A stretch of DNA of 64,000 nucleotides from Owenia fusiformis (taxonomy: Eukaryota; Annelida; Polychaeta; Sabellida; Oweniidae), in contig CAIIXF020000002.1 in assembly GCA_903813345.2 (NCBI GenBank), positions 3,944,001 through 4,008,000 of the forward strand, given 5' to 3'. A program made the translations under genes and the position numbers. The notes below the pieces were generated by a model. The model had not been told where the DNA came from and made no database searches. It saw only the letters and a list, made by a program, of their open reading frames with translations. Within the stretch, counting starts at the first letter, position 1; every line of letters starts with the position of its first letter. Shown here one piece after another: positions 3,793 to 41,800 of the stretch.

Positions 3793-3816
3793 CCCTCTCC
3801 CCCTTCGGTGACTTAC

Positions 3817-11259: not shown

Positions 11260-12690
11260 TACCATGTGATTTTTCAATGTTTTTTTATTATGTAATTTAT
11301 TCGCTAAACATATCATCGACATTAACATGAAAATGGAGAGCAGTTAAACTGGAACGATAACAATTTGAATTCTATACCATCTCTTAGATGAGTGGAGTGT
11401 ATCTGAAAAAAAAACAAATAATTTTTTGCAATGATTGATTTTTCTTTGGAAAAGTGATTGGTAAATAAATACTGAACAAATGAAAAAATGAATAAATTGA
11501 ACAAATGCTTGTGTTTATAAATGATATACGCTTTTAAATAATTCATTTCACAACGTTTTTAATTATTTAACGCAATTGGTTTCGGGGACTTGCCAGCCCA
11601 AGGGACGTCCCAAGAAATATTTTAAATTGTTAATTGAAATAAAACCAAACAGAGGTGTACACATTTGAAAGAACTTGTGTTTCATCAATATTACGACTAT
11701 TCCAGATATTTACTCGTCAATGTTGTAAAAATCATTCGGAGTATGGGATGTCTTAGCATTGTTTTCAATAACTTTCAATAACTTCGTATTGGACCAGAAC
11801 TGGCTTAAAACAAAATTCCTACAAAGGACTGATTTAGCCATTGCCCAAGATGGGTTATTTTGTCCGAGAAGAAGCTTTTAAGTTAATTGTGCGAAATTAT
11901 TGTTATTTCTAAACCTCATGCTCTGGGGTCTTGCCAAAATCTCATCCCGTGCCTAAGGTTGCCAACCGTTTTGAGGGAAGTGTAACTTCACTATGACATG
12001 TCTTTAACAAAATAAGGCTCTCGTATTCACCAAAACAAACATCAATTCATTTACTGCTCATATATGTAGTTTTCAAATAGCACAGTGATTTAATGTTTCT
12101 GGATATATGCATTTTTGCGCAAAATGATATTTTGGGAAATCCTGATCGGGGGTTCGTTCGAACCCACCAAACCCCCGCTGCCTACGGCTATGCCTTTTAC
12201 ACTGGCAGTGTAGCACGTTTCTAAACATTCGAATTTCCCGCTTTTAAGTTGAAACGATGTCTGTAAAAATGTACATAACGGTAATTTTCCTTTCAAGGTA
12301 ATAACTGTCAATACATTTTAGTGTATCAATAAAATACTTCAAAAGTGTTATCTATTGTCTTAAGATAGAGTAAATGAATAAAATGTAGAGATACAGGGAG
12401 AAAATACAAAGTGTACGATTTGACAATCTAGTTACCAAAATGTACAACTCGAAGTCCTTGTCAAGTACAACAACAAAAATGACGGAAGAGGGTGGACATT
12501 TGCCGTCAAGTCTTAATAAGAGACATTCCGGAGCTACATCTAATGATGAAGGTATAGTCTTTGCTATGATGCACATATACTTTTAGTGCTTCTTGTCTTT
12601 AATAGGCTGTAGGATACGTGGCTCACGTGAAGAAGATAGATCTATATGAATTATTTTTTAAAAAATTGAAAAAAATTAAACAGGAAATGA
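11260..12690. other. Intergenic; one GTAGCC-family fragment
   Basis: No gene was recognised. A fragment of the GTAGCC-type repeat (CCCCCGCTGCCTACGGCTAT) lies at 12130-12195. The remaining sequence is AT-rich with no clear structure. Confidence 0.45.
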
Positions 12691-12699
12691 ATATGCATA

Positions 12700-12936
12700 C
12701 AGTTGGGGACAAAAATAAATGACAGGTCGATTTTCGATCACCATTTCCTAATTATGGTGGTCTGAAAGCCCATAATTTCCAATATTGTCTAGATATATAT
12801 CCCTTAAAATTTGTATATTTTACATTTTGTATAATCACATCCACTGATGTATGGCCTCTTGTAAATTCTCTTATTTTTAACATGGGAAATCCTCACTTCA
12901 GCAAATCCACCTGTCATTTATTTATGTCCCCAACTG
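12700..12936. mobile_element. 237-bp TA-flanked MITE
   Basis: The element starts CAGTTGGGGACAAAAATAAA and ends with its near-exact inverse TTTATTTATGTCCCCAACTG, over about 27 bp. It is flanked by TA on both sides. TA target duplications and such termini are typical of Tc1/mariner-type non-autonomous elements. Confidence 0.8.
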
Positions 12937-13280
12937 TACAACTTGACCAGAACATGGGGTTTCTGGAGATAGTCATTGGTTTTAAATATAGTGTAAACAG
13001 GCCTGTAATCACGGGGGGAGGTTTGAGCGGACAGTTTTTCACCATTCTGAGCACTTCACACACTAGTTCGAACAAGTTAAACTTAAAACCGGTTTATTTA
13101 TTAATCTGATCTTACTTGGGGCTGGATTGAGTTTAACATCCGTGATATGTTTTCAAAGGTTGCAAATTTTGGATCGATTCAAATCAATCTTTATATGAAA
13201 TCAGGGTTTGCTTAGTTCCGCATGTCGAAACCTGCGGAACTATTAAATTAATACATCAAAGGCAAAATGATCATGGAGGT

Positions 13281-13503
13281 TAGACCTAGTCGGGGCACAG
13301 GAACCTGTATCAACACCTGACAGTGACATCTATTGGTGACAGAACCCTGGGAACATATCTCCTATACAACATGTACAAGAGATAAAGTGATATTTCCTGA
13401 TTTTGGTCACCAATAAATGTCACTGTCAGGTGTTGATACAGATTCCTGTGAGATGGGGCCATAAGACATGTTAGATAAGAAACGAGGCCCCTGACTAGGT
13501 CTA
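13281..13503. mobile_element. 223-bp fold-back element
   Basis: The outer ends TAGACCTAGTCGGGG and CCCCTGACTAGGTCTA are inverted repeats. The inner arms also pair: CTGTATCAACACCTGACAGT with ACTGTCAGGTGTTGATACAG. The loop is near 13370. No coding content. Confidence 0.8.
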
Positions 13504-13526
13504 ATGTTGTTGGACTATTCACACAC

Positions 13527-14342
13527 ATGCATCGGAACAGAGATAACCCCCCCCCCCACTCAGTCTATGTAAAATATTATTTATTATTATATACCCAATA
13601 TGTAACACTAATCCTGATTGGTCAATACCTAGTCACGTGTTCCGAAATGGATTTACTATTTCCCTCGGAAAGTTATATTCCCTCAAATGTGACATCAGCG
13701 GGAATATACATTTGAACTATTGCCCGCTGACGTCACAATTGCAACTTCTATTACCCTTGGAAACGTCTGCGCATCATCACTGCGCAGACGAAAAACAGAA
13801 AAATGGAGGATGAGCACAAACACAAATCAACTCCGTTCACCATGACAGACGTGCGTGAACGATACAGTATAAGCAACGTGTATAAAGTTCCCTAAGCTCA
13901 ATACGTCTGTGTAATTTCAAGTGTTATGATAATCTATTCCGCGTGTTAAACGCGATTGAATTTGTCAAGTGAGAGTCTCAGAGGCAAACATTTCTGTTGA
14001 GCATCTGATGACGTTACAGCTTATAATGCTAACAATGGACCCGGGGAGGGTGCTTTCTAAGCCTTTTTGGCCTTCGCAGAGGAAACGGGACAAGAGTCAG
14101 TATAGGGTATATAATAAAACAAATAGTGACTGCCTAATTTCGAGCAATAGTGTAAATGATTTCCCCTTGGGAATATCCTCTACAATGTACTATTCCCTCA
14201 GCCTGCGGCTTCGGGAATAGTACATTGTAGAGGATATTCCCTCGGGGAAATAATTTACACTATTGCCCTCAATGGCAGTCACTATTTGTATACTATTGTA
14301 CATAGACTGAGTGGGGGGGGGTATCTCTGTTCCAATGCCTGG
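13527..14342. mobile_element. About 815-bp fold-back element upstream of SH3D19
   Basis: The termini GGAACAGAGATA, a C-run and CACTCAGTCTATGTA are repeated inverted at the right as CATAGACTGAGTG, a G-run and TATCTCTGTTCC. A long near-perfect palindrome is nested at 14105-14290: GGAATATCCTCTACAATGTA pairs with TACATTGTAGAGGATATTCC. A 30-codon open frame at 13804 (MEDEHKHK...) sits inside with no recognised homology. Confidence 0.8.
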
Positions 14343-14633
14343 GACTTCACAACTGTCAAGTGATTTTGGGACAAAGCTGAAGGGTCCTTATTAATAATTC
14401 TGATATAGACAGTTTAACTCTTCAGATGTGAGTCAAAACTCCAAATAGTCTAACTCATCAGAGCCTGTGCGTCACTGTCGTGCTGTTCCCACACCAATCA
14501 GAGTTGCCCAACTTTGCTTGGTGGTCTGCTTTTGGCCATTGAGGCAATTGAGGCCAAATGATAAGGACATCGATGGCTGATATTGCAATTTTCATTGTTG
14601 ATTCTGAAACGTTTTCCTGTCGCTATACTTCAG

Positions 14634-14784
14634 GGGAATCCAAGGTAGAGAGAGTTGTTCCTAAGGTGCCATCGAGACCTGCCCCACCCCCACACAGACC
14701 TGCCCCTCCTCCCATTAGTCGACCAAAACAGGAACCAATCATACCTAGTAGCAATGCTGGTGCCGCAAAGCCTCCAGGAAAAAG
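14634..14784 (+). CDS. SH3D19: SH3D19 exon: proline-rich
   Basis: The acceptor is ATACTTCAG; the donor GTATTT follows AAAAG. It enters in phase 1 and leaves in phase 2. It encodes VPSRPAPPPHRPAPPP and SRPKQEPI, with class I/II SH3-ligand cores. The open frame running upstream to 14558 is intron read-through. Confidence 0.8.
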
Positions 14785-17700
14785 GTATTTCACTTGCATT
14801 ATTGTACAGTAAGTCATTTTGGGATAAAAGTTCACTTTAAGCACTCTTGATATGTTAGTTTTACTATGACAATGAATGATAGCAGTTAAAACACTTCTAT
14901 TTTAGACGACTTGAGATTACTGTGTTAGATGCAAGACCAATGAGTGAGGTTGGATTTAGAAGTACCCCTGCCAAGCCCCCTAAATCTCCTGAATCTCCTG
15001 TAGGGTCTCGTGAACCTGTTATAGCACCCACTCCAGCAAGTAGACCTGGTGGGTACTAATGATTCGTTCAGCATAGGCGTAGCCAGGGGGGTGCGTTGGG
15101 TGAGGATCCCCCCCTCCCATAACCAATAAAATAGAACCATTAGATAGAAGAAGAAAAGAACTTTAAGATGCTTTTTATTTGTAGCTTCTAGCTCAATTTT
15201 GAAGAAAGTTACATCAATTTTTGTAAAATTCGAAACAAATCTTTAATAAAGATTTTTGGCTTGCCACGATCCCCCCCCCCCCCCCAACTTAAAACCAATT
15301 CTTTGGCGATCGCACCCCCCCCCCCCCCCACCTGAAAGCTGGCTACGCCCATGTTCAGTAAAATCATTTGGCAATTAATTGTATTGTATCATGTAATTGT
15401 TCATAATGCTGTATTGGCAAGCCATACTTGAACTTTGACCTAGCAGGGGGCCCGCCATATTTGAAATAAAAATGAATGCAGGTATCCAGAATCTCAAGAT
15501 CTAAAGGGAATAAACAGAAATTAAAAAAATGAAATTAATTATGGAAAAGCAAAAATCGTCACTGAGAAAACGTAATATCGAAATCAGAATAAATGCAGAA
15601 TCATTGCCTATTCTTTAAGCAAGACAATTCTGTAACAAATGAATTAATGTAGTGATCAGTGGGATACAGGGAACGCCTCAGTCTGTCCGTACGTACGTCC
15701 ATCCATCGGTCTGGGCAATAACTCAAATACCGTTGGCCCGATTTTGTTCATATTTTGTACACATATACCCTATGGAGATAGAAGTTCTACTCCAAAGCCG
15801 ATTTTTAAAATGGCTGTTCATTTAAAGATGGCGGACAATTTATGCCAATGTTACAGTAATTTAGGTACAATATGTAAATTGAATAGCGATGTTTTAAATG
15901 TAAAAAACTATATAGGACATTAATAAAGCTAGAAATGTAGTTATTAAAGAAGCACATGGCAGCCATCTTGAAAAATGTGAAATCTTGAAAAAAATTTGGT
16001 ATGTGAATACTATAAGCATGGTACATTGTCTAATTACATTTTTAGTAGAAGGCGGCCATTTTGATAAATGGCCGGAATTTTAACATATTTTACTATAACT
16101 TGAAAAGTAGTGGAGCGATTTTGTTCATTGGTATGTGACTATAAGCATGGCACACTGTCTAATAACACTTTTGCGAGAAGGTGGCCATTTTGAAAAATGG
16201 CTGCCATTTTTGCTATATACTTTGTTTCTAAAAATGCCAGCCATTGCTGTTCGATGGGATTTGATACGCTTTGGCGCTGCTGTTGTCTAGTTAAAAATTG
16301 CCTGTGTATGAAATTATGTTAACCTATCTCACATTTAAATGTACCCTTTGCAGTTTTTTGACTTCGCTTCTTAAAAGAGAGCTTCATCTTCACTCTTTCA
16401 GCTAACAGTAAATCTCTGAACTCACTGAGCTAATCGGTGTGCATCGTCAAACTACGGACGACTTTCTATATATGGTCATTTTATTGCCATTGCATAATTA
16501 ATGAGCATGCGTTTAGCACTTGTTCCTTCTAGTCCGCTGATAGATTGAGAAAAGTTGGTTTATTTGATATAATTTATGACACAGACTGTCACTGGCAACA
16601 GTCACAGGGGGCTGCTAAACTGTAATATCGTCTATAATAGGCAGAGGGTAATTTATAACAAGGCTCTGCGTGCAGGGTAATTATAATGACTCACTTTTAT
16701 TTCACACAGTACCCTCAGCAAGACCAACACCTGCTCCTAGACCACAACCAGCCAAAAGACCAGCTACAAACAAGAAACCAGCGATTCCAGACCAAGTAAG
16801 TGTTCAGTTATTCCGAATTTTTTAAAACTATACAAGAAAATCATGTGAATGAAGGCTGTTGCTTGATTTTGCTCTGTTGCCATGGGTAACTCGCGAGAAT
16901 CTATCTCATTACCCAATCAAAAGTTTCAATATTGAGTGACAATGAATACTAATTTTCAACTCTCAGAAGTTATTTTTATGTGTACCTTAAAATCTAGGCC
17001 TTCAGTGTTTTGTTTTCTCTCTCACTAGGCTTGGGGCACCAGCCGTCACTATTATGATAATAACAATGATTTTTGTAAGAGAACAGGGTTTGAAACTCAC
17101 AACTGCCTGCCTGCCAATTGCATCTACTTTTCACTTTTGGCAATGAACTTGTTGCCAAACATGTTGCCCACTGGGCAAAGGGCTGAATGCCAATATTTTC
17201 AAATACACTATACTGGTATTGTGGCATTTATATTTTGAACCATAGTCATGAACCTTGCTAGAGAAATATCAGTTTTTTCTCACCACCAGAAGTGGTGACA
17301 TATTGTTATACACCCATGGACAGTTGGCATTTGGCGATGGTGGTTGGCATCTGTAAATAATGGCATGTGGTGACATTTTGCATATTAATGCCTTATTAAT
17401 AAAATTGTTTTACTTTCCAGCCACCTCCTCCTTACGTCCAAGCCATGCTGACCTCCATACCAACAAACAAACCAAATCTTGCCCCAGTACGCCCTGTACC
17501 ACCTAGGCTCGATCAGTCAAGTAATACAAGCCCTAATTCACAGGGTTTAGAGGGCGCTAGTGGACCTTTGGTTGATGCACGAGCAAATGTGTCGGAAAAA
17601 CCAAAACCACTTCCAAAAAGGCCAATGAGTGTGTTTGGGGATCTCAGTCAGGCTAAGCCAATCTCTCGACCTCCTGTTCCAGCCCATAGACCGAAAAGTA

Positions 17701-20700
17701 TGGTAATAAGATCAAATGTTGATTTAGTTGACTTATCTGACCCAGAACCTCCCATTCCAAGACTAAGGACTACCTCTTTAGATAAATCGGAACCATTTAT
17801 AGAAGATCAGCCTAAAACATCTCGACCTTTTAGACCAACAATAATCAGGCCATTAAAACCTGGTAAACAAACAGAGCCCAAGGGAGAGGATGATGTTAAA
17901 AGGCAAGATGATCCGTCAGGACATGATACAGAGAGTTTAAAAAATGAAACCAAAGATTCTGACTTTGAAAAACATGCTGATAAGCCTGCTATTTTAAAAC
18001 CTAAGCCAGCTATATCTGCAAAACCTTCAATATCAAGCCCTCCACCTGTCAGCCCAAAACCCAAGAGTTTAAGTCCTCCTTTGGTAAGTCCCAAGCCACA
18101 AAGTCCTGTTTCTACATCTGCACATGATGATATTGACTCTGAATTTTTCACTCCTCCACAAAGTCCGAGTTCAAGTCCACGACAATCTCAAAGTCCTGAA
18201 CAAAGTCCCAAAACATTAACTAATGTAAAAGATCTTACCCCTTCTCCAAAATCAGAGACGGACAAGGACAAAACTGAGATTAATGAAAAGCCAGAGATTG
18301 CGAAAGATGAGATTAAAAATTCTTTTGTTGCAAAGTTAAAACCGACTGTTGTAGCTCCACCAATTGGATCAAAAGAGTGGCTTGAATCAGGTGGAGTTTC
18401 TAAGAATGATGCTATTCCTGATATGCCAAATGGTAATGAAGATACGATGAGTGTCAAAAATAAAGTTGAGGCTTTTCAAAGTAATCTCCCTCACTTAGAT
18501 GAACAAGTAAGCTCTCTCGATCAACTTGCTAAAACATATGAACCACCAAAACTGAAAAGACCCACCATTATTCGCCCAAAAGCTAAAGCACGATCACGAT
18601 CCCCTAGTCCAAAAAGAACAGAAATTGACTCTAAACCAGAGAAAAATGAAGCTGCTGTTATTGAAACTGAAAACATTGAAAAGAAAACTGAACCCCCTCC
18701 AAAACCATCCAGGCTAAATGCTGGTCCTCCACCAAGGCCTAAAGCTAGACCCAAATCAATGATTGTATTATCAGAGAAGAATAAAAATGCAAATAATGAC
18801 AATTATGAAGAGCCAGTTACAGGTGTACTTGTTGATATTGCATTAAGTTCAGATGGGGAGTCTAAACAAGAGAATCTGAAACCTTCTGTAACAGAGGTTA
18901 GTGTGGATGATGCAGGCAATGAGAAAGCTTCTCCTGAAAAAGAAGCACCTGGGTCTCCTGGGAAGAAAGTACCTCCAGCAAGGCCAGGAGGACCTCCACC
19001 CAAACCTCCAAGCCCTCTCAATGCCAAGCCTAAACAGTTCAAGTAAGTCCAAATTACATTTTTTCATCTTGTTTTATCTTTATTTTTCATAGAATCCGTT
19101 TTTAATAAAGAGATTTCCCTAGCAATTTGGTTGAAAAACCAGAAAATTTTTCATTTTCCCAACATTTTGACATTTTACCACATACCTATACAACTTAAGA
19201 TGCTCAACTTAGTAAAATTAGACGGCAAAGATCATTTCTACACATTTTAAAACTATTTTTGTGTAAATTGTTCAAATAAGAGCAATTTAAGTGAAACATT
19301 TTGTGACGGATTTTCTCGTCACTCTGGGTTTCAAGGTCATCTCTGATGTGACGAGAAATCTCGTCACTCCAGGTAGTCAAAAGGTTAAGAGTCCAAGTCG
19401 ACATTAGGTTCAAACGATTTAAAACCGACCTATGTTGCGCTTGAAACTTCTGCTAATTCTAGGAATAATTTCATCAAAAATCAACATAAAGATGGTGATT
19501 ATGGGAATTTTGAAATAAAATGTCACTCGATCACCAAAAAATTGAGTGTCGTTTATGATTTCCATTTATTTCCCATTGTATTCATCCCTATTGTTGTTAA
19601 TTTTGAAAATCATTTACCATTGAAACAATTTTTGCCAGGTCCTGGTTTGTTTTCATTTCAATATTATATGCAGTCCCTTAGCCAGGATTTGCCAAGGGGG
19701 TTCACTTTTTAAAAAATTCCAGGGGGGTTCACTTGTGTCAGTTTTGGTCCAAAAATGGGTTCGCATCGACCCCCCCCCCCCTGGCTACGGGCCTGATGTG
19801 GTTACTAAGTTTTTAACTGTTTTGTTTAATTAAGGTTGCAACGTTCACTCTCTGAAAAGTCAAGTGGGCCTATGAAAGCAAAAGGTAAGTTTGCGATTGT
19901 TTTGTTTATTTTCCTAAAAAAGGAATGGAATTTGCATGTATGGATGCTAACAATCAATTTAGTACCATTTAGTACCATGTGTATTTGTTCATTGAAGTGT
20001 AAAATTTGGTAAACATTGTGTTATCATAAATTTAATTTTCATATTCCTTTCAACTCCTGCTTCAATCGTTTTCAATTGTCACTTCCATTATTCCATGTGA
20101 TTTGTCTTCAATTTGAGCTGTTATTTTAACTACTGTAGATTGGGTTAATTTGGCGCTACTTAATTTGGCGACTTTGCCATTTTTGCCATATTGGCGGCTA
20201 TTTAATTTGGCAGATATGCAAAAAAATTTAAAATTAAATGCAATATTAAACTTACACGCTGTTTGCGAATTACGATGTAAATGGGCATGTTTGGCTATGT
20301 TCATTTTTTTATTTTGAGGACCACTGGCGATATTCACCACGTTTGTACATTTTTGTGAGATCATCCTTTACATTTTGCACCTCGATCGATGCTGCTACTA
20401 TACCATGCTTTTCCTTTCTAGCTTTTCCCTGAATATTAATGAGTGACTGACCAGTTCTGAGCCAATTTATGAGAGACATTTTTTCATATTTTTGGAAAAA
20501 ACTAAACCGGAAGTGACCTAAATACACTGGAGGAAATACCCTAGATAATTCCCGGGGATTCATTCTAAATTTTGGCGAAGATTTATATTGGCGAATTTTT
20601 CAATTTCGCCAAATTCGCCAAATTAAAGCAGGCGCCAAATTAACCCAATCTACAGTATTTCATCTAAAATATTCTCCTAATATTGACAATGATTCCATGA

Positions 20701-23700
20701 TATTATTTGCAAATGAAAACACACTATACATACATATATACAAATTACATACTTTTACATGCTTCCTTATAAATTTTTTTATTTATTTTTTTCAATATAT
20801 ATATTTTTTTTTCAAAACATTGTTTACAATCAAAGTTAGTACTAATCTAAGACCACGGGGGTTCCTTATAAAATACCATCCCAAAACTCTTCTCTAATTT
20901 TTATTTTTAGGCCCACCAGCACTGCCAGAGAGACCTGGTCCAGAGCACCCTCTTTTCCATTATGTTGCCACGGGGCCAAGGGGGGTTGCGCTGTTTGATT
21001 ATGAAGCACAGCAATCAGATGAAATATCATTCCAGGTAGCTACTGAAGGAGTTATTTATTTGCCCAGTTTTGTTATTATGTCACCACCAAAAAGTGGTGA
21101 TATATTGTTATGGTCTCCAGTTTTTTTTTTGATGGTGGTTGGCGATTGGCGGTCGGCGGTCGGCGTCTGTAACAAATTCTTACAACTTAACTTCCAATAA
21201 AATAACACATACTGTATAGACTGATTTCAATTGTTTTCAAAATCATCTGCATGTTTTTAGAAGTTCAAGTCTGACTTTAAATTTAAGATTTGACCTTCAA
21301 TGATCTTCTTAAGGTCAAAAAAGGTCAAAAAGGTCTTTTTTCAACTTGCTTCAAATTGACCAATTTTTTTTCAAAATCATCTACAAGTTCTCAACATTTC
21401 AAATCTGACTAATCTGGCTGATCCTTAAATGAAATTCTCAAGCTCAAAACATTTGACCTTTAATGACCTCCTCAAGGTCAAAAAGGTCTTTTTTTATCTT
21501 GCTTCAACTAGTTGGTGACACATTGTCATGTTATGCCTTGTCTGATATGATATGATATATAGAGGATATCCTATGATTTATGAGTGACATGATTTTTATC
21601 CACGAATGGATATGATATCTGCATGAGCGAGCGTAGCGAGAGAGTGCAGATATCAATATCCTCGTTTTGAGTCTGAAGTAGCAAAAATCCATAAACCATA
21701 TCATACCGTTTTTATTTTCACATGTTATCCTATGAATATCATGCTAACTATGGAATAAGATATGATATGTTATTAAACTTATTCAGTTTTTCAAATGTTC
21801 ACTTTCATACCTGTCATCGTACATGGATTTCTTTATGTTCAGTTAGATCTGATCATAACATACAGAGTGACTGGAATAAAAAGAAGACCGTTGAAATAAG
21901 CAGTATCTCCTTAATTAGACAAGTTACATCAATGAAATTTTGCTCTTCTCATTATTGTTTATGCTTCTCTTTTCACAAGGTTGGAGATGTAGTGCTTCTC
22001 ATACGTAAAATTGATCCTTTCTGGTATTATGGGAAGGTGAAAAACAAAGAAGGTCTTTTCCCAACAAACTTCGTCGAGGTTGTTGAGCAACTCCCAAAAG
22101 AAGAAAAGGAGGTAAGATAATAGGGAGGTTAAGTTACATGTTTTTAAGAGAACCTTTACGTGAGCGTGTAATATTTTGACCCCTGGGGATTACTGTTCTG
22201 CTCTAAATTCACTTTCCCAGGGACCTAATTACAATGTGTACAATTATTTTCCGTATACCTTTATACTCAATCGGCCAAGTAATGCCTGGGTCACGTTTGC
22301 TCCGATTCATCGGCCGGCGCCCGCCCGATTGAATATTTTGTTCAAAATTGTATACAGTTTTGACTACAAATGGGGAAACTGATCCACAGAGAACTATAGT
22401 TCTACACATTCACGTTACGTACAAATTTTATAAAAAAGTGTAACTTTACCTCCCTAATGTTTGTATGTACTGTATTATTGAGCAATTCTGGAAAATTTAG
22501 AAGCAATATTAGATAAACAAATCTTCAGGTGGCCTACTTTGGATTGTTCTCTTATCCAAAATAAGCATTTGACTGGAAACCGTGGAAATTCTCAAGGAGG
22601 ATTGGCTCCCAGGATCGAAACTCGATATTTTCCAACAATGAAAACATTGAAATGTTGTTATTTTCTGATAATAAAAACTGACTATAAATTCAAAATAAAC
22701 AGTTAAAAAGATTTGAAGCAATATCTCGATCATTTCTTATGAGTTTGGGAATTTTTCGTTAGAAAATAAGACAAAAATTCACAACTCAAATGTTGAAGGG
22801 AACAAAATGGCAGCTGTTTGAATTTGAATTTTGTATCACGGCATGCTCATATATGGGACAGAATATTGATGTTGCACTCTGGAAGCCAATCCTCCTTGGG
22901 TAGTACTGGACATTTGAGCTTTAGTCTTGAGTTAGCAGAAGTGCCAACCTAAAATGAAAAGTTTTCGGGAGATTTAAAAAAATTGCGGTACCTTTACGGG
23001 AGTTTTTTCAAAATCCGGTAGTTTTTGCGGGAGTTTGTTGAAAAAAAGCGGGAGTTTTTACGGGAGATTTTTGAAAAAAAACAGTAGTTTTTACGGGAGA
23101 TTTCGGAAAATCGGGAGTTCTTACGGTAGGTTTCTGAAAAAACGGGTGTTTTTACGGTAGATTTTGAAAAAAACGTGAGTTTTTATGGTAGATTTCTGAA
23201 AAAACAGGAGTTTTTACGGTAGATTTTGAATAAACAGGAGTTTTTACGGTAGATTTATGAAAAAACAGGAGTTTTTACTTTAGATTTTGAATAAACAGGA
23301 GTTTTTACGGTAGATTTTGACAAAACGGGAAAAACAGTGTTTTATTACTTTGGAAACAAATTTATCAAAGCTAAGTAAAATGTATATGTGGCGTTCACTA
23401 TATGCTAAGGGCAATCTGCGTGAGGTTCCATTTTTAGGTTTGGTTTCTCGCGCATGAGCATTAAATCCAGTGATTTAATTGGTTGAAATTATTGACACAT
23501 GCGCAGTAAATAAATTAATTAGAACTTATAATCTAAGATAGATGTCACTTACGTTCATTATTTCACAGCAGTCCCTATCCATAATGCGCCTTATATTGCG
23601 GGAATATTTTGTTTAGCGCCATATAAAAACAAAATGTATTCTCCCGACAGAAGTATGACAGAATATGAACTGGCCCCCGTTTGTGGACATTTGGTGTACA

Positions 23701-26700
23701 AACGTATACCGAACTGATCGCAGAAAAGCAATTTGAATCATGGGAATGAAGTTCTTTTAAGTTATTTATGAAAGTATCGATAGTGAACCATGGGAGCCAA
23801 TCCTTCTTGGAGTAAAAGAAAGAAGCGTGCCTGCAATAATCAAGGTCACAAATTTGTCAAATTCCTTTTAAATACGGTAGATTTCGACAGCAAAACTGAG
23901 ATTTTACGGGAGTTATACCAAGAATACGGGAGATTTTACGGGAGTTATACCAGAAAACGGGAGATTTTATGGGAGTTATACCAAGAATGCGGGAGATTTT
24001 ACGGGAGTTACACCAGAATACGGGAGATTTTACTGGAGATTTCAGCAAAAATACGGGAGATTTTATGGCCATATTTTTTTAAAAAAATATGGGAGATTTT
24101 AGTGGAAATACAGTACGGGAGTTTTTACGGGAGAAAACAGTATGGGAGTTTGGTATTTTTTACGGAAGAACAAAAAATTTATGGGAGATTCCCGTAAAAA
24201 AACGAGAGGTTGGCAAGTCTGGTTAGGTACCACAAAGGCACAGTAATATCATTTGTAGTATGTATTATTACAGCAAGTCTACTTTACTTGAAATATCAGT
24301 GGTAGAATTGAACATTTATCTGTTGTTAAAAGTTATTTGCCACAAATACAAGTCAAGAAAATAATTCCATTCTTGCAGGATACAGAAGCTGTCAAAATAC
24401 AAGCAGAAAAAACGACAACGCCAACCGCATCTGATCAAATATCAGGACCACGCTGCATGGCAAGATTTGACTTTGAAGGTGAAAACGACAGTGATTTATC
24501 ATTCATGGAAAATGACGTCATTAAGTTAATGGAACGTTCAGGTGATGAATGGTTGAAGGGAGAACTAAATGGCAAGACGGGACTATTTCCAGTGACTTTT
24601 GTTGAAATTATTGAAGATTTGCCAACAAATGAGGGTGCTAATCCAGATCAACAAGAATCTGCAGCAATTCATGCTTTGGATCAGGCTTTGACTGCTTGGG
24701 ACGATGATCCCCCTGTTGTTGGTGACAAAGGTGGGGACCAATCTATTGCAAATATGAAAGCAAGTGAAAAGAATAATGATCTTTTTAAGAAGGGTAGGTA
24801 TGATTTAAAATCGATTCTAAGTTTGGATAGCTTAGTTTTGAAACTATGCCAGCCAATAACTTTAGCAAATTTCAGTCGGCCTTATGAAGTCCTGAACCAG
24901 CCACGATTTCAGAATTTAAAGGAGCATCAAATGTATTTTAAAATACTTTATTTTATGTATTCGATCAGTTTTGCTTTTAATATTTTCTATAAAGTTTGAT
25001 GAAATTTGGAATTATATCAGATAGATATGTTTTAATGTTATCTCATAATATCGAGAATATGCCATCTTTGATAGCACTTTGACCTTGACCTCATGTAACC
25101 TAGCAACAATGTAGGACATATTCCACATGATCATGAAATTAATTGATAGTTTGATTAATTGATACTATTCTAACGTTTGCATGTTTTAATTGACATTGTA
25201 CATTTATGTAGTGCTCGCTTTCTTGTTTAGATGGCCACATTGTGATGAAGACCTTATTTGACTTTAAAAGCAATTTATTATAACGTTTGCATGTTTTAAT
25301 TGACGTTGTACAATTATGTAGTGCTCGCTCTCTTGTTTAGATGGCCACATTGTGATGAAGACCTTATTTGACTTTAAAAGCAATTTATTATAACGTTTGC
25401 GTGTTTTAATTGACATTGTACAATGTAGTGCTCGCTCTCTTGTTTAGATGGCCACATTGTGATGAAGACCTTATTTGACTTTAAAAGCAATTTATTATAA
25501 CATTTGCATGTTTTAATTGACATTGTACAATTATGTAATGTTCACTTTCTTGTTTAGATGGCCACATTGTGATGAAGACCTTATTTGACTTTAAAAGCAA
25601 TTTATTCTAACGTTTGCGTGTTTTAATTGACATTGTACTGTAGTGCTCGCTCTCTTGTTTAGATGGCCACATTGTGATAAAGACCTTATTTGACTTTAAA
25701 AGCAATTTATTATAACATTTGCATGTTTTAATTGACATTGTACAATTATGTAATGTTCACTTTCTTGGTAAGATGGCCACATTGTGATGAAGACCTTATT
25801 TGACTTTAAAAGCAATTTATTCTAACGTTTACATGTTTTAATTGTCATTGTACAATGTTGTGCTCGCTCTCTTGTTTAGATGGCCACATTGTGATGAAGA
25901 CCTTATTTGACTTTAAAAGCAATTTATTCTAACGTTTACATGTTTTAATTGACATTGTACAATGTTGTGCTCGCTCTCTTGTTTAGATGGCCACATTGTG
26001 ATGAAGACCTTATTTGACTTTAAAAGCAATTTATTCTAACGTTTGCATGTTTTAATTGACATTGTACAATGTTGTGCTTGCTCTCTTGTTTAGATGGCCA
26101 CATTGTGATGAAGACCTTATTTGACTTTAAGAGCAATTTATTATAACATTTGCATGTTTTAATTGACATTGTACAATTATGTAATGTTCACTTTCTTGTT
26201 AAGATGGCCACATTGTGATGAAGACCTTATTTGACTTTAAAAGCAATTTATTCTAACGTTTGCGTGTTTTAATTGACATTGTACAATGTAGTGCTCGCTC
26301 TCTTGTTTAGATGGCCACATTGTGATGAAGACCTTATTTGACTTTAAAAGCAATTTATTATAACATTTGCATGTTGTAATTGACATTGTACAATTATGGA
26401 ATGTTCACTTTCTTGTTAAGATGGCCACATTGTGATGAAGACCTTATTTGACTTTAAAAGCAATTTATTATAACATTTGCATGTTGTAATTGACATTGTA
26501 CAATTATGGAATGTTCACTTTCTTGTTAAGATGGCCACATTGTGATGAAGACCTTATTTGACTTTAAAAGCAATTTATTCTAACGTTTGCATGTTTTAAT
26601 TGACATTGTACAATGTAGTGCTCGCTCTTTTGTTTAGATGGCCACATTGTGATGAAGACCTTATTTGACTTTAAAAGCAATTTATTATAACATTTGCATG

Positions 26701-28200
26701 TTTTAATTGACATTGTACAATTATGGAATGTTCACTTTCTTGTTAAGATGGCCACATTGTGATGAAGACCTTATTTGACTTTAAAAGCAATTTATTCTAA
26801 CGTTTGCGTGTTTTAATTGACATTGTACAATGTAGTGCTCGCTCTCTTGTTTAGATGGCCACATTGTGATGAAGACCTTATTTGACTTTGATGGAGAAAA
26901 TGGGGAATTAACATTCAAGGTAATTATGAACAAACTTAAATTATTTTAGTCTGTAACGGTCTATAATAATATATCTTCTTTGGAACATTGACTCAAGATA
27001 GTTTGTTGAATTCAGTGTGTTTGAATAAACATACAAATTCAAATCATATTATCTTGTCTAAAGTCTAAAATACTTTCAGGCTGGGGACGAAATATCTGTG
27101 ATAAACCAGGTCAATTCTGATTGGTTAACTGGTAAGATAGGTGGCACAACTGGTATCTTCCCAGCATCCTTCATTGGTGACATTCCAGAAAACCTACCAT
27201 CATGTGATAACAATACAGCCCCACCTTTTGAAGAGGATGTAAACAAAAAGGTAAACTCAAGAGCAAGAAGTTTTAGCTTAATGTGAATTTTAAACCAAGG
27301 ATAAAACAATTCTATTCTAATTTAAAAGCATTAATACTGAAACAAACCCAAGTAACGGTATGTAGTCTTGGCACAATTTTACTTTGCCATTGGATGAAAT
27401 GAGATAAAAGAATGAATGATGAGGTGAGATGGTTAAGGGATGGATTATGATAAGATTAAGATCACCTTCTCCAATGACCTCAAGATTTTTGATGTTCAGC
27501 TTGTGATGTTACATTCAATCTGGCATTTTCTATCATTTATGGGATGTCATAAATTTTCAGGAATTTTACTATTATGATACATGTATATGTAATAAGTACC
27601 TTCACCAAAATATAGATTTTTTGACATAAAAATCTGATATGACAATTTTATGACAAGGAGTGACTATAGTATATTCTTGCGAGAAAGTATAAGAAAATAT
27701 ATATGCTGCCTTTATATTTCCAGGAGGTGCAATATTACGCAATAGCAACATTTCCATTTGAAGCACAATCCGATTCTGATCTAAGCTTCAACACTGGTGA
27801 TAGGATCGCAGTGAATGAACAAATTGATGATGATTGGTTATCAGGAACAATTGGATCTCGAAGTGGTGTTTTTCCAAAAAACTTTGTTGAGATCGAGAAA
27901 ACTTCACCACAAGAGACTTCACCATCGAGTGGTCTCATAAGGACCTCTTCTAATAGTCGAATTAAGACCCCTGAGAGACCGATAGTGACTCCTCAAGGAC
28001 GCGTGGTTTATGATTTCACAGCAGAAGCAGAAGGAGAACTTTCAATGTCAGTTGGCCAGACTGTGTATTTGTTGGAACATGTTAATGCAGAATGGATGAA
28101 AGGAACAATTGACAATGACACTGGTAATTTCCCAGTGAATTATATAGAAATTATTACGCCTCTGCCAGAGTCTCCAAAGCCAGATGAATATAAAATATGA
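14634..28200 (+). CDS. SH3D19: SH3D19-like multi-SH3 adaptor protein (11 exons, 5' end missing)
   Basis: Exons: 14634-14784, 14906-15048, 16710-16795, 17421-19042, 19835-19884, 20911-21035, 21980-22111, 24379-24793, 26855-26919, 27080-27250 and 27724-28200. All join in phase and give about 1145 residues. Residues 1-705 are proline-rich and disordered, with many PxxP SH3-ligand motifs (APPPHRPAPPP, KPPKSP, PPPRPKARPKS) and PTIIRPLKPGK-type blocks like those in vertebrate SH3D19. Five SH3 domains follow at about 709-765, 794-852, 913-970, 990-1047 and 1078-1136. Each has ALYDF-like, W and FPxxF/Y signatures. The count and order match SH3D19 (EEN-binding protein), a cytoplasmic scaffold tied to endophilin and ADAM-protease trafficking. 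That role is family knowledge. The first exon enters in phase 1, so at least one upstream exon with the start codon was not found. Confidence 0.9.
14906..15048 (+). CDS. SH3D19: SH3D19 exon: proline/serine-rich
   Basis: The acceptor TTCTATTTTAG precedes ACGACTTGAG. The donor GTGGGT at 15049 keeps the frame; a GTACTA four bases later would not. It encodes STPAKPPKSPESPVGS and APTPASRP. Confidence 0.8.
15067..15352. mobile_element. GTAGCC-family element in an SH3D19 intron
   Basis: The left end is GGCGTAGCCAGGGGGG and the right end CTGGCTACGCCC. C-runs occur in the middle (15270-15330). The inverted ends mark a non-autonomous TIR element. It begins only 18 bp after the exon at 14906-15048. Confidence 0.7.
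15660..16310. repeat. Degenerate dispersed repeat with internal direct repeats
   Basis: Contains TCTGTCCGTACGTACGTCCA at the left and two internal copies of ATAAGCATGG followed by CATTGTCTAA or CACTGTCTAA, with AGGCGGCCATTTTGA or AGGTGGCCATTTTGA (16010-16200). It resembles the element at 35365-36100 in style (CCGTCC blocks, AAATGGC). It is intronic, with no coding content. Confidence 0.5.
16344..16682 (+). mobile_element. Full-length copy of the TACCCT-ended MITE family
   Basis: Starts TACCCTTTGCAG and ends CTGCGTGCAGGGTA. The flanks ATTTAAATG and ATTATAATG agree at 7 of 9 positions, consistent with a decayed 9-bp target duplication. It ends 27 bp before the acceptor AG-proximal base of the exon at 16710. 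Confidence 0.8.
16710..16795 (+). CDS. SH3D19: SH3D19 exon: proline-rich
   Basis: 86 nt. The acceptor is ATTTCACACAG and the donor GTAAGT. It encodes PSARPTPAPRPQPAKRPA, leaving in phase 0. Confidence 0.82.
17278..17400 (+). mobile_element. Short copy of the TGTCACCACC repeat family
   Basis: Runs from TCTCACCACCAGAAGTGGTG to ATGGCATGTGGTGACATTTT and ATGCCTTATTAAT. It abuts the polypyrimidine tract of the next SH3D19 exon (17421), so the element end lies about 20 bp from a functional splice site. Confidence 0.65.
17421..19042 (+). CDS. SH3D19: SH3D19 large proline-rich exon (541 residues)
   Basis: The largest exon, 1622 nt. The acceptor is TACTTTCCAG; the donor GTAAGT is at 19043. It begins PPPPYVQAM. 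It holds repeated basic-proline motifs: KPLPKRPMS, RPPVPAHRPKS, RPTIIRPLKPGK, SPPPVSPKPKS, RPTIIRPKAKARSRSPSPKR, PPPKPSR, PPPRPKARPKS and PPKPPSP. Many fit PxxPxR or RxxPxxP ligands for SH3 domains, so binding to its own or partner SH3 domains is plausible. No folded domain is seen. A single uninterrupted coding exon of this size and composition is strong evidence that the gene is intact. Confidence 0.93.
19671..19795. mobile_element. GTAGCC-family element, 125 bp
   Basis: The ends CAGTCCCTTAGCCAGGATTT and CTGGCTACGGGCCTG are inverted. The interior has two GGGGGTTCAC blocks and a C-run. It is intronic, about 40 bp upstream of the next exon. Confidence 0.75.
19835..19884 (+). CDS. SH3D19: SH3D19 small exon
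   Basis: 50 nt. The acceptor is GTTTAATTAAG and the donor GTAAGT. It encodes LQRSLSEKSSGPMKAK, a basic, serine-rich linker. It enters in phase 2 and leaves in phase 1, both matching the neighbours. Confidence 0.8.
20133..20655. mobile_element. 523-bp TA-flanked MITE
   Basis: CTGTAGATTGGGTTAATTTG at the left and its exact inverse at the right (CAAATTAACCCAATCTACAG) form perfect terminal repeats of at least 20 bp, with TA on both flanks. TTTGGCG repeats lie subterminally. No transposase frame. A Tc1/mariner-type non-autonomous element inside an SH3D19 intron. Confidence 0.88.
20911..21035 (+). CDS. SH3D19: SH3D19 exon: first half of SH3-1
   Basis: 125 nt. The acceptor is TTTTTATTTTTAG and the donor GTAGCT. 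It encodes a linker and then GVALFDYEAQQSDEISFQ, the ALYDY strand and RT loop of the first SH3. The intron falls in phase 0 right after SFQ. Confidence 0.88.
21074..21541 (+). mobile_element. Long copy of the TGTCACCACC repeat family
   Basis: Starts TATTATGTCACCACCAAAAA and ends GGTGACACATTGTCATG followed by TTATGCCTTG. Inside are two direct repeats containing AAAAAGGTCTTTTTTCAACT and TTGCTTCAAATTGACCAA. Its closest relative is 32281-32934. Confidence 0.75.
21980..22111 (+). CDS. SH3D19: SH3D19 exon: second half of SH3-1
   Basis: 132 nt, phase 0. The acceptor is CTCTTTTCACAAG and the donor GTAAGA. It encodes VGDVVLLIRKIDPFWYYGK then EGLFPTNFVEVVEQLP. Trp in FWYYG and the PTNF strand complete the SH3 peptide-binding groove. 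The open frame starting at 21722 is intron read-through into this exon. Confidence 0.9.
22593..22899 (+). mobile_element. 307-bp TIR element (CAAGGAGGATTGGCT ends)
   Basis: It begins CAAGGAGGATTGGCTCCCAG and ends GGAAGCCAATCCTCCTTG. A second copy lies in reverse orientation at 31731-32036 (306 bp), sharing the ATATTTTCCAACAATGAAAA block. It is in an SH3D19 intron. Confidence 0.82.
22938..24221. repeat. Composite element rich in CGGGAGTTTTTACGGGAG minisatellite
   Basis: Short repeats of the type CGGGAGTTTTTACGGGAGAT occupy 22970-23330 and 23870-24190. Inverted ends GTGCCAACCT (22941) and AGGTTGGCAAG (24207) suggest one insertion with subterminal minisatellites. The left block drifts to CGGTAGATTT, the right to GGGAGTTATACCA. 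An open frame of 135 codons at 23790 is only this repeat read through. Confidence 0.65.
24379..24793 (+). CDS. SH3D19: SH3D19 exon: complete SH3-2 plus acidic linker
   Basis: 415 nt. The acceptor is CATTCTTGCAG; the donor GTAGGT leaves in phase 1. SH3-2 reads CMARFDFEGENDSDLSF through DEWLKGE to KTGLFPVTFVEII. Unlike SH3-1 and SH3-3 it has no internal intron. The linker is acidic (LTAWDDDPPVVGDKGG). Read-through past the donor to 24999 is intron. Confidence 0.92.
25172..26890 (+). repeat. Exon-derived satellite: 15 decoy copies of an SH3D19 acceptor plus partial exon
   Basis: Units of about 107-111 bp repeat head to tail. Every unit contains the intron end (CTCTCTTGTTTAG or TTTCTTGTTAAG) and the first 38 nt or so of the SH3D19 exon at 26855: ATGGCCACATTGTGATGAAG, ACCTTATTTGACTTT. 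After that point the decoys turn into AAAAGCAATTTATT and stop (TAA), whereas the last copy continues into the true exon (GATGGAGAAAATGGGG). Exon heads start near 25231, 25341, 25448, 25558, 25663, 25773, 25879, 25987, 26094, 26203, 26311, 26421, 26531, 26638 and 26747, with the real one at 26855. Two sub-types (GTGCTCGCTCTC and ATGTTCACTTTC) alternate unevenly. Confidence 0.96.
26855..26919 (+). CDS. SH3D19: SH3D19 exon: first half of SH3-3
   Basis: 65 nt. The acceptor TCTCTTGTTTAG is shared with many satellite copies; the donor is GTAATT. It encodes GHIVMKTLFDFDGENGELTF, the first strands of SH3-3, and leaves in phase 0 after FK. That is the same position at which SH3-1 is split. It is the last unit of the upstream array and the only one with a complete exon and donor. 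Confidence 0.9.
27080..27250 (+). CDS. SH3D19: SH3D19 exon: second half of SH3-3
   Basis: 171 nt, phase 0 at both ends. The acceptor is ATACTTTCAG and the donor GTAAAC. It encodes AGDEISVINQVNSDWLTGK, then TTGIFPASFIGDI and an acidic linker. Confidence 0.92.
27724..28200 (+). CDS. SH3D19: SH3D19 terminal exon: SH3-4 and SH3-5
   Basis: 477 nt, ending in TGA at 28198. The acceptor is TTATATTTCCAG. SH3-4: YYAIATFPFEAQSDSDLSF, then DDDWLSGTI and SGVFPKNFVEI; the usual ALYDF is altered to AIATFPF. A serine/proline linker follows. SH3-5: GRVVYDFTAEAEGELSM, then NAEWMKGTI and TGNFPVNYIEII. The protein ends about nine residues after SH3-5, as expected for SH3D19. Confidence 0.93.
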   Translation, partial: EVQYYAIATFPFEAQSDSDLSFNTGDRIAVNEQIDDDWLSGTIGSRSGVFPKNFVEIEKTSPQETSPSSGLIRTSSNSRIKTPERPIVTPQGRVVYDFTAEAEGELSMSVGQTVYLLEHVNAEWMKGTIDNDTGNFPVNYIEIITPLPESPKPDEYKI

Positions 28201-28273: not shown

Positions 28274-30303
28274 AATATTTCCTGATACAGTAGTGTGCAA
28301 GGGAACATTCCCTGATGAGTGTATGGGGAATATTCCCTGATGCCAGGAGTGTGAGTGGAATATTTTTTAATGACAAGATTGTGTGTGAGGGGAATATTCC
28401 CTAATGACAGGAGTGGGAGGGGAATATTCTTTGATGACAGGATTGTGAGGGAAATATTCTTCAATGACAAGAGTGTGTGTGAGGGGAATATTCCCTAATG
28501 ACAGGAGTGTGAGTGGAATATTCCCTGATGCCAGGAATGTGAGGGGAATATTCTTTAATGACAAGAGTGTGTGTGAGGGGAATATTCCCTAATGACAGGA
28601 GTGGGAGGGGAATATTCTTTGATGACAAGAGTGTGTGTTAGGGGGAATATCCCCTAATGACAGGAGTGTGAGTGGAATATTCCCTGATGCCAGGAATGTG
28701 AGGGGAATATTCTTTAATGACAAGAGTGTGTGTGAGGGGAATATTCCCTAATGACAGGAGTGGGAGGGGAATATTTTTTGATGACAAGAGTGTGTGTTAG
28801 GGGAATATCCCCTAATGACAGGAGTGTGAGTGGAATATTATTTAATGCCAGGAGTGTTAGGGGAATATTCTTTAATGACAATAGTGTGTGTGAGGGGAAT
28901 ATTCCCTAATAAGAGGAGTGAGGGGGAATATTCCCTGATGCCAGGAGTGTGAGTGGAATATTCTTTAATGCCAAGAGTGTGTGTGAGTGGAATATTTCCT
29001 AATGACAGGAGTGGGAGGGGAATATTTTTTGATGACAAGAGTGTGTGTGAGGGGAATATTCCCTAATGACAGGAGTGGGAGGGGAATATTTTTTGATGAC
29101 AAGAGTGTGTGTTAGGGGAATATCCCCTAATGACAGGAGTGTGAGTGGAATATTATTTAATGCCAGGAGTGTTAGGGGAATATTCTTTAATGACAATAGT
29201 GTGTGTGAGGGGAATATTCCCTAATAAGAGGAGTGAGGGGGAATATTCCCTGATGCCAGGAGTGTGAGTGGAATATTCTTTAATGCCAAGAGTGTGTGTG
29301 AGTGGAATATTTCCTAATGACAGGAGCGTAAGGGGAATATTCCCTGATGCCAGGAGTGTGAGGGAAATATTCTTTAATGACAAGAGTGTGTGTGAGGGGA
29401 ATATTCCCTAATAACAGGAGTGTGAGTGGAATATTCCCTAATGCCAGGAGTGTTAGGGGAATATTCTTTAATGACAAGAGTGTGTGTGAGGGGAATATTC
29501 CCTAATAACAGGAGTGTGAGTGGAATGTTCCCTGATGCCAGGAGTGTGGGTGGAATATTCTTTAATGACAAGAGTGTGTGTGAGGGGAATATTCCCTAAT
29601 GACGGGAGTGTGAGGGGAATATTCCCTTATGACGGGAGTGTGAGGGGAATATTCCCTAATGACGGGAGTGTGAGGGGAATATTCCCTAATGACAGGAGTG
29701 TGAGGGGAATATTCCCTAATGACAGGAGTGTGAGTGGAATATTCCCTGATGCCAGGGGTGTGAGGGGAATATTCTTTAATGACAAGAGTGTGTGTGAGGG
29801 GAATATTCCTCTCAAACAGGAGTGTGAGTGGAATATTCCCTATTGCCAGGAGTGTTAGGGGAATATTCTTTAATGACAAGAGTGTGTGTAAGGGGAATAT
29901 TCCCTAATAACAGGAGTGTGAGTGGAATGTTCCCTGATGCCAGGAGTGTGAGTGGAATATTCTTTAATGACAAGAGTGTGTGTGAGGGGAATATTCCCTA
30001 ATGACGGGAGTGTGAGGGGAATATTCCCTAATGACGGGAGTGTGAGGGGAATATTCCCTAATGACAGGAGTGTGAGGGGAATATTCCCTAATGACAGGAG
30101 TGTGAGTGGAATATTCCCTGATGCCAGGGGTGTGAGGGGAATATTCTTTAATGACAAGAGTGTGTGTGAGGGGAATATTCCCTAATAACAGGAGTCTGAG
30201 GGGAATATCCCCTCATGGCAGAAGTCTTGAGGGGAACATTCCCTGATGAAAGGGGTGTGAGGGGAATATTCCCAAAAATGAGAGCAGTGTGAGGGGAATA
30301 TTA
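28274..30303. repeat. Minisatellite of GGGGAATATTCCCTAATGAC units after the SH3D19 stop
   Basis: About 2 kb of units of roughly 29-33 bp, each containing the palindrome GGGAATATTCCC or a variant (GGAATATTCTTTAATG), then GACAGGAGTGTGAG or GACAAGAGTGTGTGTGAG. Higher-order copies exist: the block at 28826-28990 recurs at 29140-29300, and 29560-29790 recurs at 29970-30170. It starts 74 bp after the stop codon and so may be transcribed as 3' UTR. Many long open frames on both strands here are products of the repeat, not genes. Confidence 0.95.
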
Positions 30304-38470: not shown

Positions 38471-38475
38471 GACAC

Positions 38476-38833
38476 GTGCATATAACGTGTTTTGTTGGAA
38501 TGAACGCTCACTGGATTTTAATACAAATTATTTGGATGATACAACTTAGTTCACAAATTATGTGTAAATCAACCAAGAATTTTAATATACCAGTGTTAAA
38601 ACAGGCAGCTATGACCAAAGACGCTTTAGCGAGTAGTACGGGAACGTTTACGTTACGGCTACGTAGAAATAATGTTTACGGCCCAAAATGGGGCCCCGGT
38701 ACACCAAAGAGACGCTTAAAACGAAATCTTCCTCGTCTTAGTGACACTAAATATTTTATGTCTTCGACAGGATACAATTTGGTTATCTTACCGAATGGAC
38801 GAATAACAGGCCATTCGAGGCCGAGCAGATATG
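38476..38833 (+). CDS. FGF-A exon 1: signal peptide and first core strands
   Basis: Starts at ATG 38476; a second ATG at 38500 would begin nearer the hydrophobic stretch and is equally plausible. The donor GTAGGT at 38834 is in phase 1, after SRPSRY. It contains the signal-like segment, the basic RRLKR site and STGYNLVILPNG. Confidence 0.85.
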
Positions 38834-41800
38834 GTAGGTTGGAGACACTCAGCATGAAGTAACTCATACGTCATCCTGACGTTTACGTCATTGTAAACAT
38901 AGACTGGCTCTAAGCTTATTTGACCATTGCGTGCAAAAACTTTTACTTTATAGTTTTTACTTGTTCGGCGAGGTTTTATCCGGGGATTTTATATACACGT
39001 ATGCCTCTGTCGTGCTTACACTATACGTTGACCGTGTGTAGGAACTCTATTATCTAACGTTTCGTTTTTACATTGAATAGTTAATGCTCTTCGTACTGAA
39101 TGATTAACATACGGTGACCTGAACTTTGTCCATCTGTCTGCTTGCTTGTTTTATTTGTTTGCTTGCTTGTTTTATTTGTTTGTTGTTTGGTAAGAATCTT
39201 AGGCCTATATAAGATTATGTTATTCGATGTTATCAGTTAATAGTCCTATTTTCTCCCGTAAGAGAATCTATATCTAGCCCACAATGCTTGAAATGTCGCT
39301 GACTTTGTTCATAAACTTTACGTATAACGTAAAATTCATTGAAACGTATTCAATATTACGTATAACTGTTTCTTCTGCCAGGCTTTCTTCCTTAAACCCC
39401 TATACAAAAATATAAACAATACGTAACGTTGCTAGGCAATGCTGCAGCGTTCAAAAGCACGTTATCATTCCGTGATGCACTTTCGACAGCTAGACCCAGG
39501 GTGCCAGTGGGCCAAGATGATGAAATCAAAATATATCATTTTTTAAAAGATGATGCAATATTACTGGGCAGAATAAGATAGATGGGCAACAGACTTTGCC
39601 ATTCACCTTGACCCTCTTAGTAGATAAATTCCAATGTACTTGAATGAGGATTTGTTACTATCTTGATAAGAAGACGAGATCCAATCATGTGCCTAGTTCT
39701 CCAAGCACCACATTGGTCGAGCCTAAACCTAAAGGGATAGAATTGAAGAACAATTATTTATAAAGAACAAAAGTAAAAATTCATTATGTGTTAATTTTGT
39801 ATTTAACACCCCCCCCCCTTCCAAAGTTGCTGAAAGATCATTGTATTTAGATATTTTGAATTAACATGATATATTTATTATGTGTTAATTTTGTATTTAA
39901 CACCCCCCCCCCCTCCCCGCAAAGTTGCTGTAAGATTAGAAAACATATATATAGTGTCTTTAGTTAGTTTGAATCAACACATCTTGGTAAGCCACGCCCT
40001 CTCCATCTCTGTCCTTCTGGAGAGCATCTGCGATGCAACAGAGAGAGGTGCTATGAGTATCAGAATGTAATCAACATGATATACTCTTATGTTTTATGTA
40101 CCAATTTAGAAAAAGAATATTTCAAGAATGGAGTATATTAAATTTTAGGCGGTTGGGCCCCTTTATAGACACGCTTCGATAAACATATTTACAATAACAT
40201 CAGACCATGTAAAATAACATGTTTGCACCACTTAACTAATTACCGATTAATTGATTTTTAAATGTTTTACATGCGAGGTTAATGAAATTGTGAAGTATGA
40301 AAGCCAATACTTGACATTAATTCTCTGGTTCGGTGTCAGTTTGACACCTTGTGTTTAAGGGTAAAAAATATTGAACGTTTTCTACACATTTTAGAATTAT
40401 TGGTCTGACTTTCAAATAGCAAGCGGCCTTGTAGTTAAAGTGGTATTGCTTATAAACCTTCCGGCCTATCACACCGATATTTCTTAAAAACGTGGACTTG
40501 CATGCCTTTTATGCTTTCTTGGAGGAAACCCTGCTCTTACCCACATAAACTGGGGCTATTTAGATAAAAAAAAAGTGGCATTACAGGGCACTTTTTTTAA
40601 TTAGGCCCTATTGCATTATTTTTTTAAAATTTGGGCCCACTTTTGGTGCCCCTTCCCCTCTGGATTTTCAGGATCGTCCTTTGTGTTTTGTTAAACATAC
40701 CCTTCACTGGCGGATCCATCCAGTGGGGATCAATCCCGGGGGATCAATGGGGCCCGGGCCTCCCTCTGTAGGATGGCCCCAAAAGTTTTATAGTGCTTCA
40801 TTACCTGACCTTTTTGGGCATTAATTAGGCCAAATGAGCCAAAAATGGGCCTTAAATTTTCAAAATTCGGGCCCTATTTCGGGGGGGGTTAGAGGTCCGA
40901 CATTTATTTTCTCAACTGAAATGTGGGTCCCCCCTGGTAGCTTCCAGATTCGACACTAACCTTCACATTACGAAGGGGATTGGTTTTGCATGGGGAAAGT
41001 TTATTTGTGGCTGGGGGGAATCCTGGGGTGAGCCCCCCCCCCTCCCCCCTTACAAAAAGCTGGTTACGGGCATGATCTTAAGCGTTTTGGGTAACAGTAT
41101 TAACACGCATGCACACTTGCTTCAAATAAGGGACTAGGTAATTTAATTTCATTCCTCATTCTATAAGGCAACAAATCAAGTATATAATTATTTTTAATGA
41201 TTTTGATCTATCCGCAAATATTGGCATTAGGTAAAAATAAAAGGCCTAATGCAGAAGTTTTCAACTGACTATTATTCACCCGGGATTATTTAGTTTGATA
41301 GTATCATATCTGGAGACAATGAAGAGATTTCACACAGTACATGAGATTATCTAAAATGTAAATCTAGTGAATACGTTGGCGTTATACGTTAATTTTGAGC
41401 TAAAAACGTTGTGCGAAACCTCTCTATTCTTCTATTACGATAACGTTTACCCATGTCAATGGAGAGATTAGGATATAGTGCCCCTTTAAATGTAGAATAA
41501 ATATAATTACAATTTATCATTCAAATACAAAACGCAACACTTGAAAAACGATGACCTTAGGACAAGGTATATTCATATTTAGGATGAAGGCTAAATAAAG
41601 AAAATATATAGTAAGGAAGTGACAATAAGACAGATTACTGGATAGTAATTGTCTAAAAACTAATCATTAATCGCTGGCGGGTCTTTGATGTGTTATAAAC
41701 GACCATACAAATCCTTGATGTACTAGCTATAATGTAAAAGTGCTTGTCATTCAAAAATCAACATTTCCGGTTTGGATATATCTTCAATTTATATGATCTA

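Follow-up and report, generated by a model that had tools for sequence, protein, structure and literature searches.

The SH3D19 gene of Owenia fusiformis lies on the + strand at 12440-28200 of the window, by which we mean the whole 64,000-nt stretch of DNA analysed. In a protein search, residues 548-1008 of the gene model matched the O. fusiformis protein P0001 (1182 aa) with 100% identity and 100% coverage, and the exons of P0001 were located in the window by tblastn. Among the matches listed (120 of 264), P0001 was followed by SH3D19 records from other phyla and the best named matches were SH3D19; Pfam SH3 models matched all five SH3-bearing pieces of the gene (E < 0.001), and the identity proposed in the first-pass annotation is thus borne out. 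The first half of SH3-1 lay under the curated Pfam cutoff and its second half passed SH3_2; the N-terminal piece had no match in the Pfam search. The SH3 domains were aligned using SH3D19 and nine relatives picked from those listed, and the solved structures searched included 16 SH3-containing chains at E < 1e-10.

The intron between the exons of the second and third SH3 domains holds a tandem array, laid out as follows; splice-site scores, here and throughout, come from generic matrices not trained on Owenia, and a slash marks the splice junction.

24379..24793, + strand: upstream coding exon of SH3D19 with the second SH3 domain; donor AGG/GTAGGT, phase 1, score 8.88
24794..26854, + strand: host intron of 2061 nt, 1627 nt of which are complete decoy units
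25166..26792, + strand: 15 decoy tandem units of 105-110 bp, each made up of an intron 3′ end with its acceptor, 35 nt of exon and a 10-nt filler, and each giving an in-frame TAA
26793..26854, + strand: intron 3′ end of the functional acceptor (unit 16)
26855..26919, + strand: functional 65-nt exon, which begins the third SH3 domain; donor AAG/GTAATT; present in P0001

TRF reported the array at 25166-26889 with a period of 110, 15.9 copies and a score of 2779, and also with a period of 217, far beyond chance, in agreement with the initial description of 15 tandem units built from the acceptor and the exon start. Each decoy unit was composed of the last 60-65 nt of the SH3D19 intron, the 35 nt with which exon 26855-26919 begins and a 10-nt non-exon filler, so that the shared exon sequence, first put at about 38 nt, is shorter than supposed. 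Copies of the exon start were found at 25231, 25341, 25448, 25558, 25663, 25773, 25880, 25987, 26094, 26204, 26311, 26421, 26531, 26638, 26748 and 26855 (n = 16), the sixteenth unit being the real intron-exon boundary. The filler reads AAAAGCAATT, or AAGAGCAATT in 1 of 15 units; it does not continue the exon sequence, and the next motif, TATT(A/C)TAAC, comes after it. The in-frame TAA claimed for the decoys was present in 15/15 when the frame of the upstream exon (phase 1) was carried through, although the tail it would close had to be corrected to 17 residues, DGHIVMKTLFDFKSNL(L/F), with M at the sixth position and I instead in unit 5. As first observed, a full exon with a donor follows the last unit alone; this is the mechanical outcome of a tandem duplication whose right break lies inside the exon, and no special cause is needed.

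As in a boundary minisatellite, the units are tandem and each carries the splice site of the adjoining exon, with the AG kept in 16/16 (unit 6 weak, -1.33). A 62-base query of the exon half plus filler gave 16 matches in the 498-Mb assembly, every one at the SH3D19 array; as far as tested with this query, the array is a single-locus minisatellite. Neither the 372 bp that precede the array nor 26920-27300 contained degenerate units above the level of shuffles. Short matches to the filler at 7562, 23724-23725, 24971, 27321 and 44833 were considered as its template and judged to be chance. A 14-bp palindrome in several A-form units, ACATTGTACAATGT, was set aside as well, 17 other palindromic 14-mers being found elsewhere in the window. 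Two of the 16 units, the functional one and unit 15, were folded as RNA, and neither folded better than shuffles (z 0.75 and 1.14).

Thirteen tandem arrays were identified in the window, only one of which overlaps any of the 12 mapped SH3D19 exons. In 20 hand-picked 10-kb stretches (200 kb), a sample measured for repeat density only, minisatellites made up 10.4% of bases, in 26 arrays no shorter than 150 bp, with none in 8 of the 20 stretches. One array of about 4.9 kb in this sample (L016, 5083-10000) reached the end of its stretch. Within the window, the SH3D19 stop codon at 28200 is followed, about 117 bp further on, by a 2-kb minisatellite at 28317-30302 with periods of about 30, 64 and 94. 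Elsewhere in the window, an ORF at 38473-38862 has what we take to be an FGF-like look and had no Pfam match at 0.001, and a minus-strand ORF at 3742-4065 presumably resembles a short-chain dehydrogenase exon.

The relationships among the units were analysed with a distance matrix and an NJ tree, and two placements in the array bear on its history.

25166..25385, + strand: units 1 and 2, at the 5′ edge, which fall between the two principal forms of unit in the distance matrix and NJ tree
26249..26345, + strand: opening 97 bp of unit 11, which the functional copy matches exactly in its intron end and exon start (26793-26889)

The two main unit forms described at the outset were recovered: form A mostly combines ACAATG with TTGTTTAG, and form B combines ACAATTATG mostly with TTGTTAAG. 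To judge from the matrix and tree, these forms are consistent with unequal exchange. Unit 16, the functional copy, was nested among the A units in the NJ tree, which has no outgroup and does not give the direction of change; unit 11 was nearest to unit 16, alone or tied, in 500/500 resamplings of the intron-part columns; and units 12 and 13 were identical across both the intron part and the exon part. The functional boundary therefore appears to form no separate lineage and seems to share exchange with the decoys, and its identity to unit 11 over 97 bp suggests that it evolves in concert with them. The alternation of the two forms along the array (11 runs) had P = 0.14, and AAG acceptors sit closer to the exon with P = 0.03, though the units are not independent.

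The near-invariance claimed for the exon part was upheld. Variation was confined to 1/35 columns in the exon part, as against 22/65 alignment columns in the intron part, 18 of them with substitutions; the filler varied in 1/10. By Fisher test the exon-intron difference gave p = 0.0025 on substitutions (18 of 65 columns) and p = 0.0012 when events were counted by hand (19 in 62), the two differing in how indels are counted and both treating columns as independent. That the filler also varies little speaks against selection on the exon sequence as the sole cause.

The acceptors were first said to have two spellings, and the count returned three: TTGTTTAG in 11/16 units, TTGTTAAG in 4/16 and TTGGTAAG in 1/16 (unit 6). 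Ten units, namely the functional one and nine decoys, scored 3.16-3.31, unit 4 scored 2.33, the four TTAAG units -0.04 and unit 6 -1.33; the range over five other real SH3D19 acceptors was -1.37 to 7.44. Nine of the 15 decoy acceptors thus equal the true one or lie within 0.15 bit of it, and on these scores most decoys are no weaker than the working site at 26855. A classic recursive splice site requires AG directly followed by GT. The decoys read AG/ATGG, and a scan of the intron (24794-26854) found no decoy AG/GT, the sole AGGT lying at 24796 just behind the donor, which leaves the recursive splicing that the first-pass annotation had entertained, in its classic form, without sequence support. 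The same scan found no GGG, AATAAA or ATTAAA, and the suggestion that the decoys serve as alternative last exons was dropped on the lack of the latter two, the poly(A) signals that the scan covered. Just behind the upstream donor there is also a tandem rival 4 nt downstream, TAG/GTATGA at 24798, which scores 5.93 against 8.88 and whose use would shift the frame (24794-24798).

The decoys had also been said to lack a clear donor, a statement that fails at unit 6.

25768..25773, + strand: GTAAGA, where the unit 6 acceptor has changed to a donor-like TTG/GTAAGA, score 6.81, surpassed among the GTs of the intron by the real donor only
25663..25767, + strand: candidate 105-nt poison exon with in-frame TAA, from the unit 5 acceptor to the unit 6 donor-like site

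A single difference separates unit 6 from unit 10, the change of TTGTTAAG to TTG/GTAAGA, and its score falls just under the weakest of the six scored real SH3D19 donors (6.88-10.32). The interval 25663-25767 has the anatomy of a poison exon, in that an acceptor and a donor-like site bound an in-frame stop. On the + strand of the window, 67 of 3533 GTs scored at least as high as the unit 6 site, and six of these were real donors.

Which acceptor is used was read from the annotation. P0001 joins ...FKK to DGHIVMKTLFDFDGENG, a junction indicating that it is the last acceptor, 26855, that is used in the annotated protein, where none of the other fifteen appears. With a query carrying the decoy tail, P0001 was the sole Owenia record at E < 1e-30 and no truncated record was returned, a result that such a transcript, if decayed or omitted, would also give. 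The accessible part of PMC9977687 describes the published Owenia annotation as built from RNA-seq plus prediction, with 31,678/31,903 transcripts RNA-supported, a figure for the whole gene set.

By its sequence anatomy, the Owenia array is grouped with several human systems; both boundary minisatellites and duplications of splice sites have been described in human genes, so the initial remark that such arrays are rarely described was overstated. In CBS 844ins68, as the available text of PMC7490669 describes it, the last 52 nt of intron 7 and the first 16 nt of exon 8 are duplicated, acceptor included; the inserted copy adjoining the exon remainder is kept and the upstream one excised, and a title cited there credits the acceptor choice to G runs. 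The Owenia array likewise is a tandem duplication of an intron-exon boundary with its acceptor, and the exon-adjoining copy is kept, according to the annotation; CBS 844ins68 is however a human polymorphism with one extra copy, against fifteen. The ABCA7 intron 18 VNTR has a 25-bp unit starting at the donor, with one-unit retention, stop-containing isoforms and length-linked exon skipping (PMC5954066, in part). It too is a minisatellite adjoining an exon with a splice site in its units, but it is the donor (GT) that is repeated, the unit contains no coding exon, and the splicing effect was measured. In the IFI6 (6-16, G1P3) minisatellite, the repeat units are alternative splice sites, according to the portion of PMC4526556 that cites Turri 1995; these are donors and productively used, in contrast to the acceptors with stops in Owenia. 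A survey of human duplicated genes, so far as its accessible text goes, reports 27 modifications of introns by repeats situated at exon-intron boundaries, with an average unit of 30 bp repeated 4 times, tied to novel introns in recent paralogues (PMC2812944). Recursive (ratchet) splice sites resemble the Owenia array in placing several acceptors within one intron and differ from it in needing AG/GT. Judged on sequence, the Owenia array is set apart by the repetition of the acceptor, by the coding sequence and stops in its units and, relative to CBS, by its copy number; an acceptor-type array of such size was not found in the literature searched, which marks the limit of that search and is no proof.

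Taken together, these observations probably reflect a duplicated intron-exon boundary that was amplified by unequal exchange and is spliced over normally; the array is most likely an accident of repeat expansion, bypassed by the cell in splicing. In a tandem duplication, one breakpoint would have fallen 35 nt into the SH3D19 exon and the other about 62 nt before the acceptor; their joining would have left the 10-nt filler at the joint, and unequal exchange with gene conversion would then have produced the 15 complete extra units. The 3′-most copy would have remained continuous with the remainder of the exon and with its donor, which would explain why the gene still works. In defining the 65-nt exon, the spliceosome would work backwards from the donor at 26920 to the closest acceptor, 26855, and the whole array would be removed within the 2-kb intron; decoy use would be rare and would mostly give truncated or decayed transcripts. 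Exon definition from the donor at 26920 is likely to be the selector because the preceding intron is long (2061 nt) and the following one is 160 nt. In a published acceptor survey, we take the class label LS to denote a long upstream and a short downstream intron. That survey, in its available part, reports that long flanking introns cut the preference for upstream acceptors and that the LS class behaves as exon-defined (PMC9225289). It also reports that upstream acceptors are preferred overall, a point against the explanation, so that some decoy use would be unsurprising. The identity of unit 11 to the functional copy and of unit 12 to unit 13 is as predicted by ongoing exchange. Three further points count against it: with nine decoys scoring like the true acceptor, nothing local explains their being ignored; the invariance of the exon part exceeds what a uniform duplication history predicts; and the G runs credited with acceptor selection in CBS have no counterpart in the SH3D19 intron, which lacks GGG.

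The strength of the decoys would also suit a regulatory cassette, in which they compete with 26855 and the unit 5/6 poison exon lowers full-length SH3D19 or truncates the protein after SH3-2. Such a role would gain from the near-donor score at 25768 (6.81 vs 6.88-10.32, the best GT of the intron barring the real donor), from the stop within the 105-nt candidate exon, from the nine decoys that match the real acceptor and from ABCA7, where splicing changes track repeat length (PMC5954066, in part). We nevertheless consider it unlikely, given that other GTs this strong occur about once per kb, so that one within the 1.6-kb array is expected by chance, that the donor change is seen in just 1/15 decoys, that the intron has neither AATAAA nor ATTAAA, and that the decoy-tail query found no truncated Owenia record. 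A more far-reaching proposal, which we regard as rather improbable, is that the working acceptor evolves in concert with its 15 decoys, with exchange writing variants into the site and the first 35 coding bases, that a donor bred from an acceptor outlines a poison exon, and that each worm's SH3D19 output could be set by how long its array is and how its units are ordered.

The contrast between exon and intron parts (1/35 columns against 19/62 events or 18/65 substitution columns; p = 0.0012 and 0.0025) could further be read as selection on the decoys themselves, for instance on silencer or enhancer motifs, beyond exchange with a constrained exon. This is very unlikely, since the same pattern would follow from conversion tracts shared with a selected copy or from divergence of the intron half before amplification, and since the non-exon filler varies in 1/10 columns, so that low variation is not confined to the exon. 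An assembly artefact is what noisy long reads might produce, repeats being hard to assemble; we think it extremely improbable here, as the units bear distinct variants and the reads, with an N50 of 25.75-30.75 kb and Illumina polishing in the available text of PMC9977687, are far longer than the 1.7-kb array, if that is the same assembly.

On the reading of the array as an amplified boundary that is spliced over, SH3D19 of Owenia offers a naturally occurring setting in which to test how the spliceosome picks one acceptor out of many that are nearly the same when a single full exon follows them. Use of the decoys in RNA is the feature that would, if true, make the array work like those of CBS, ABCA7 and IFI6. 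The locus suggests that a gene can stay intact when a repeat expansion starts at one of its coding boundaries, and that a decoy acceptor can become a donor-like site, thereby outlining a new exon.
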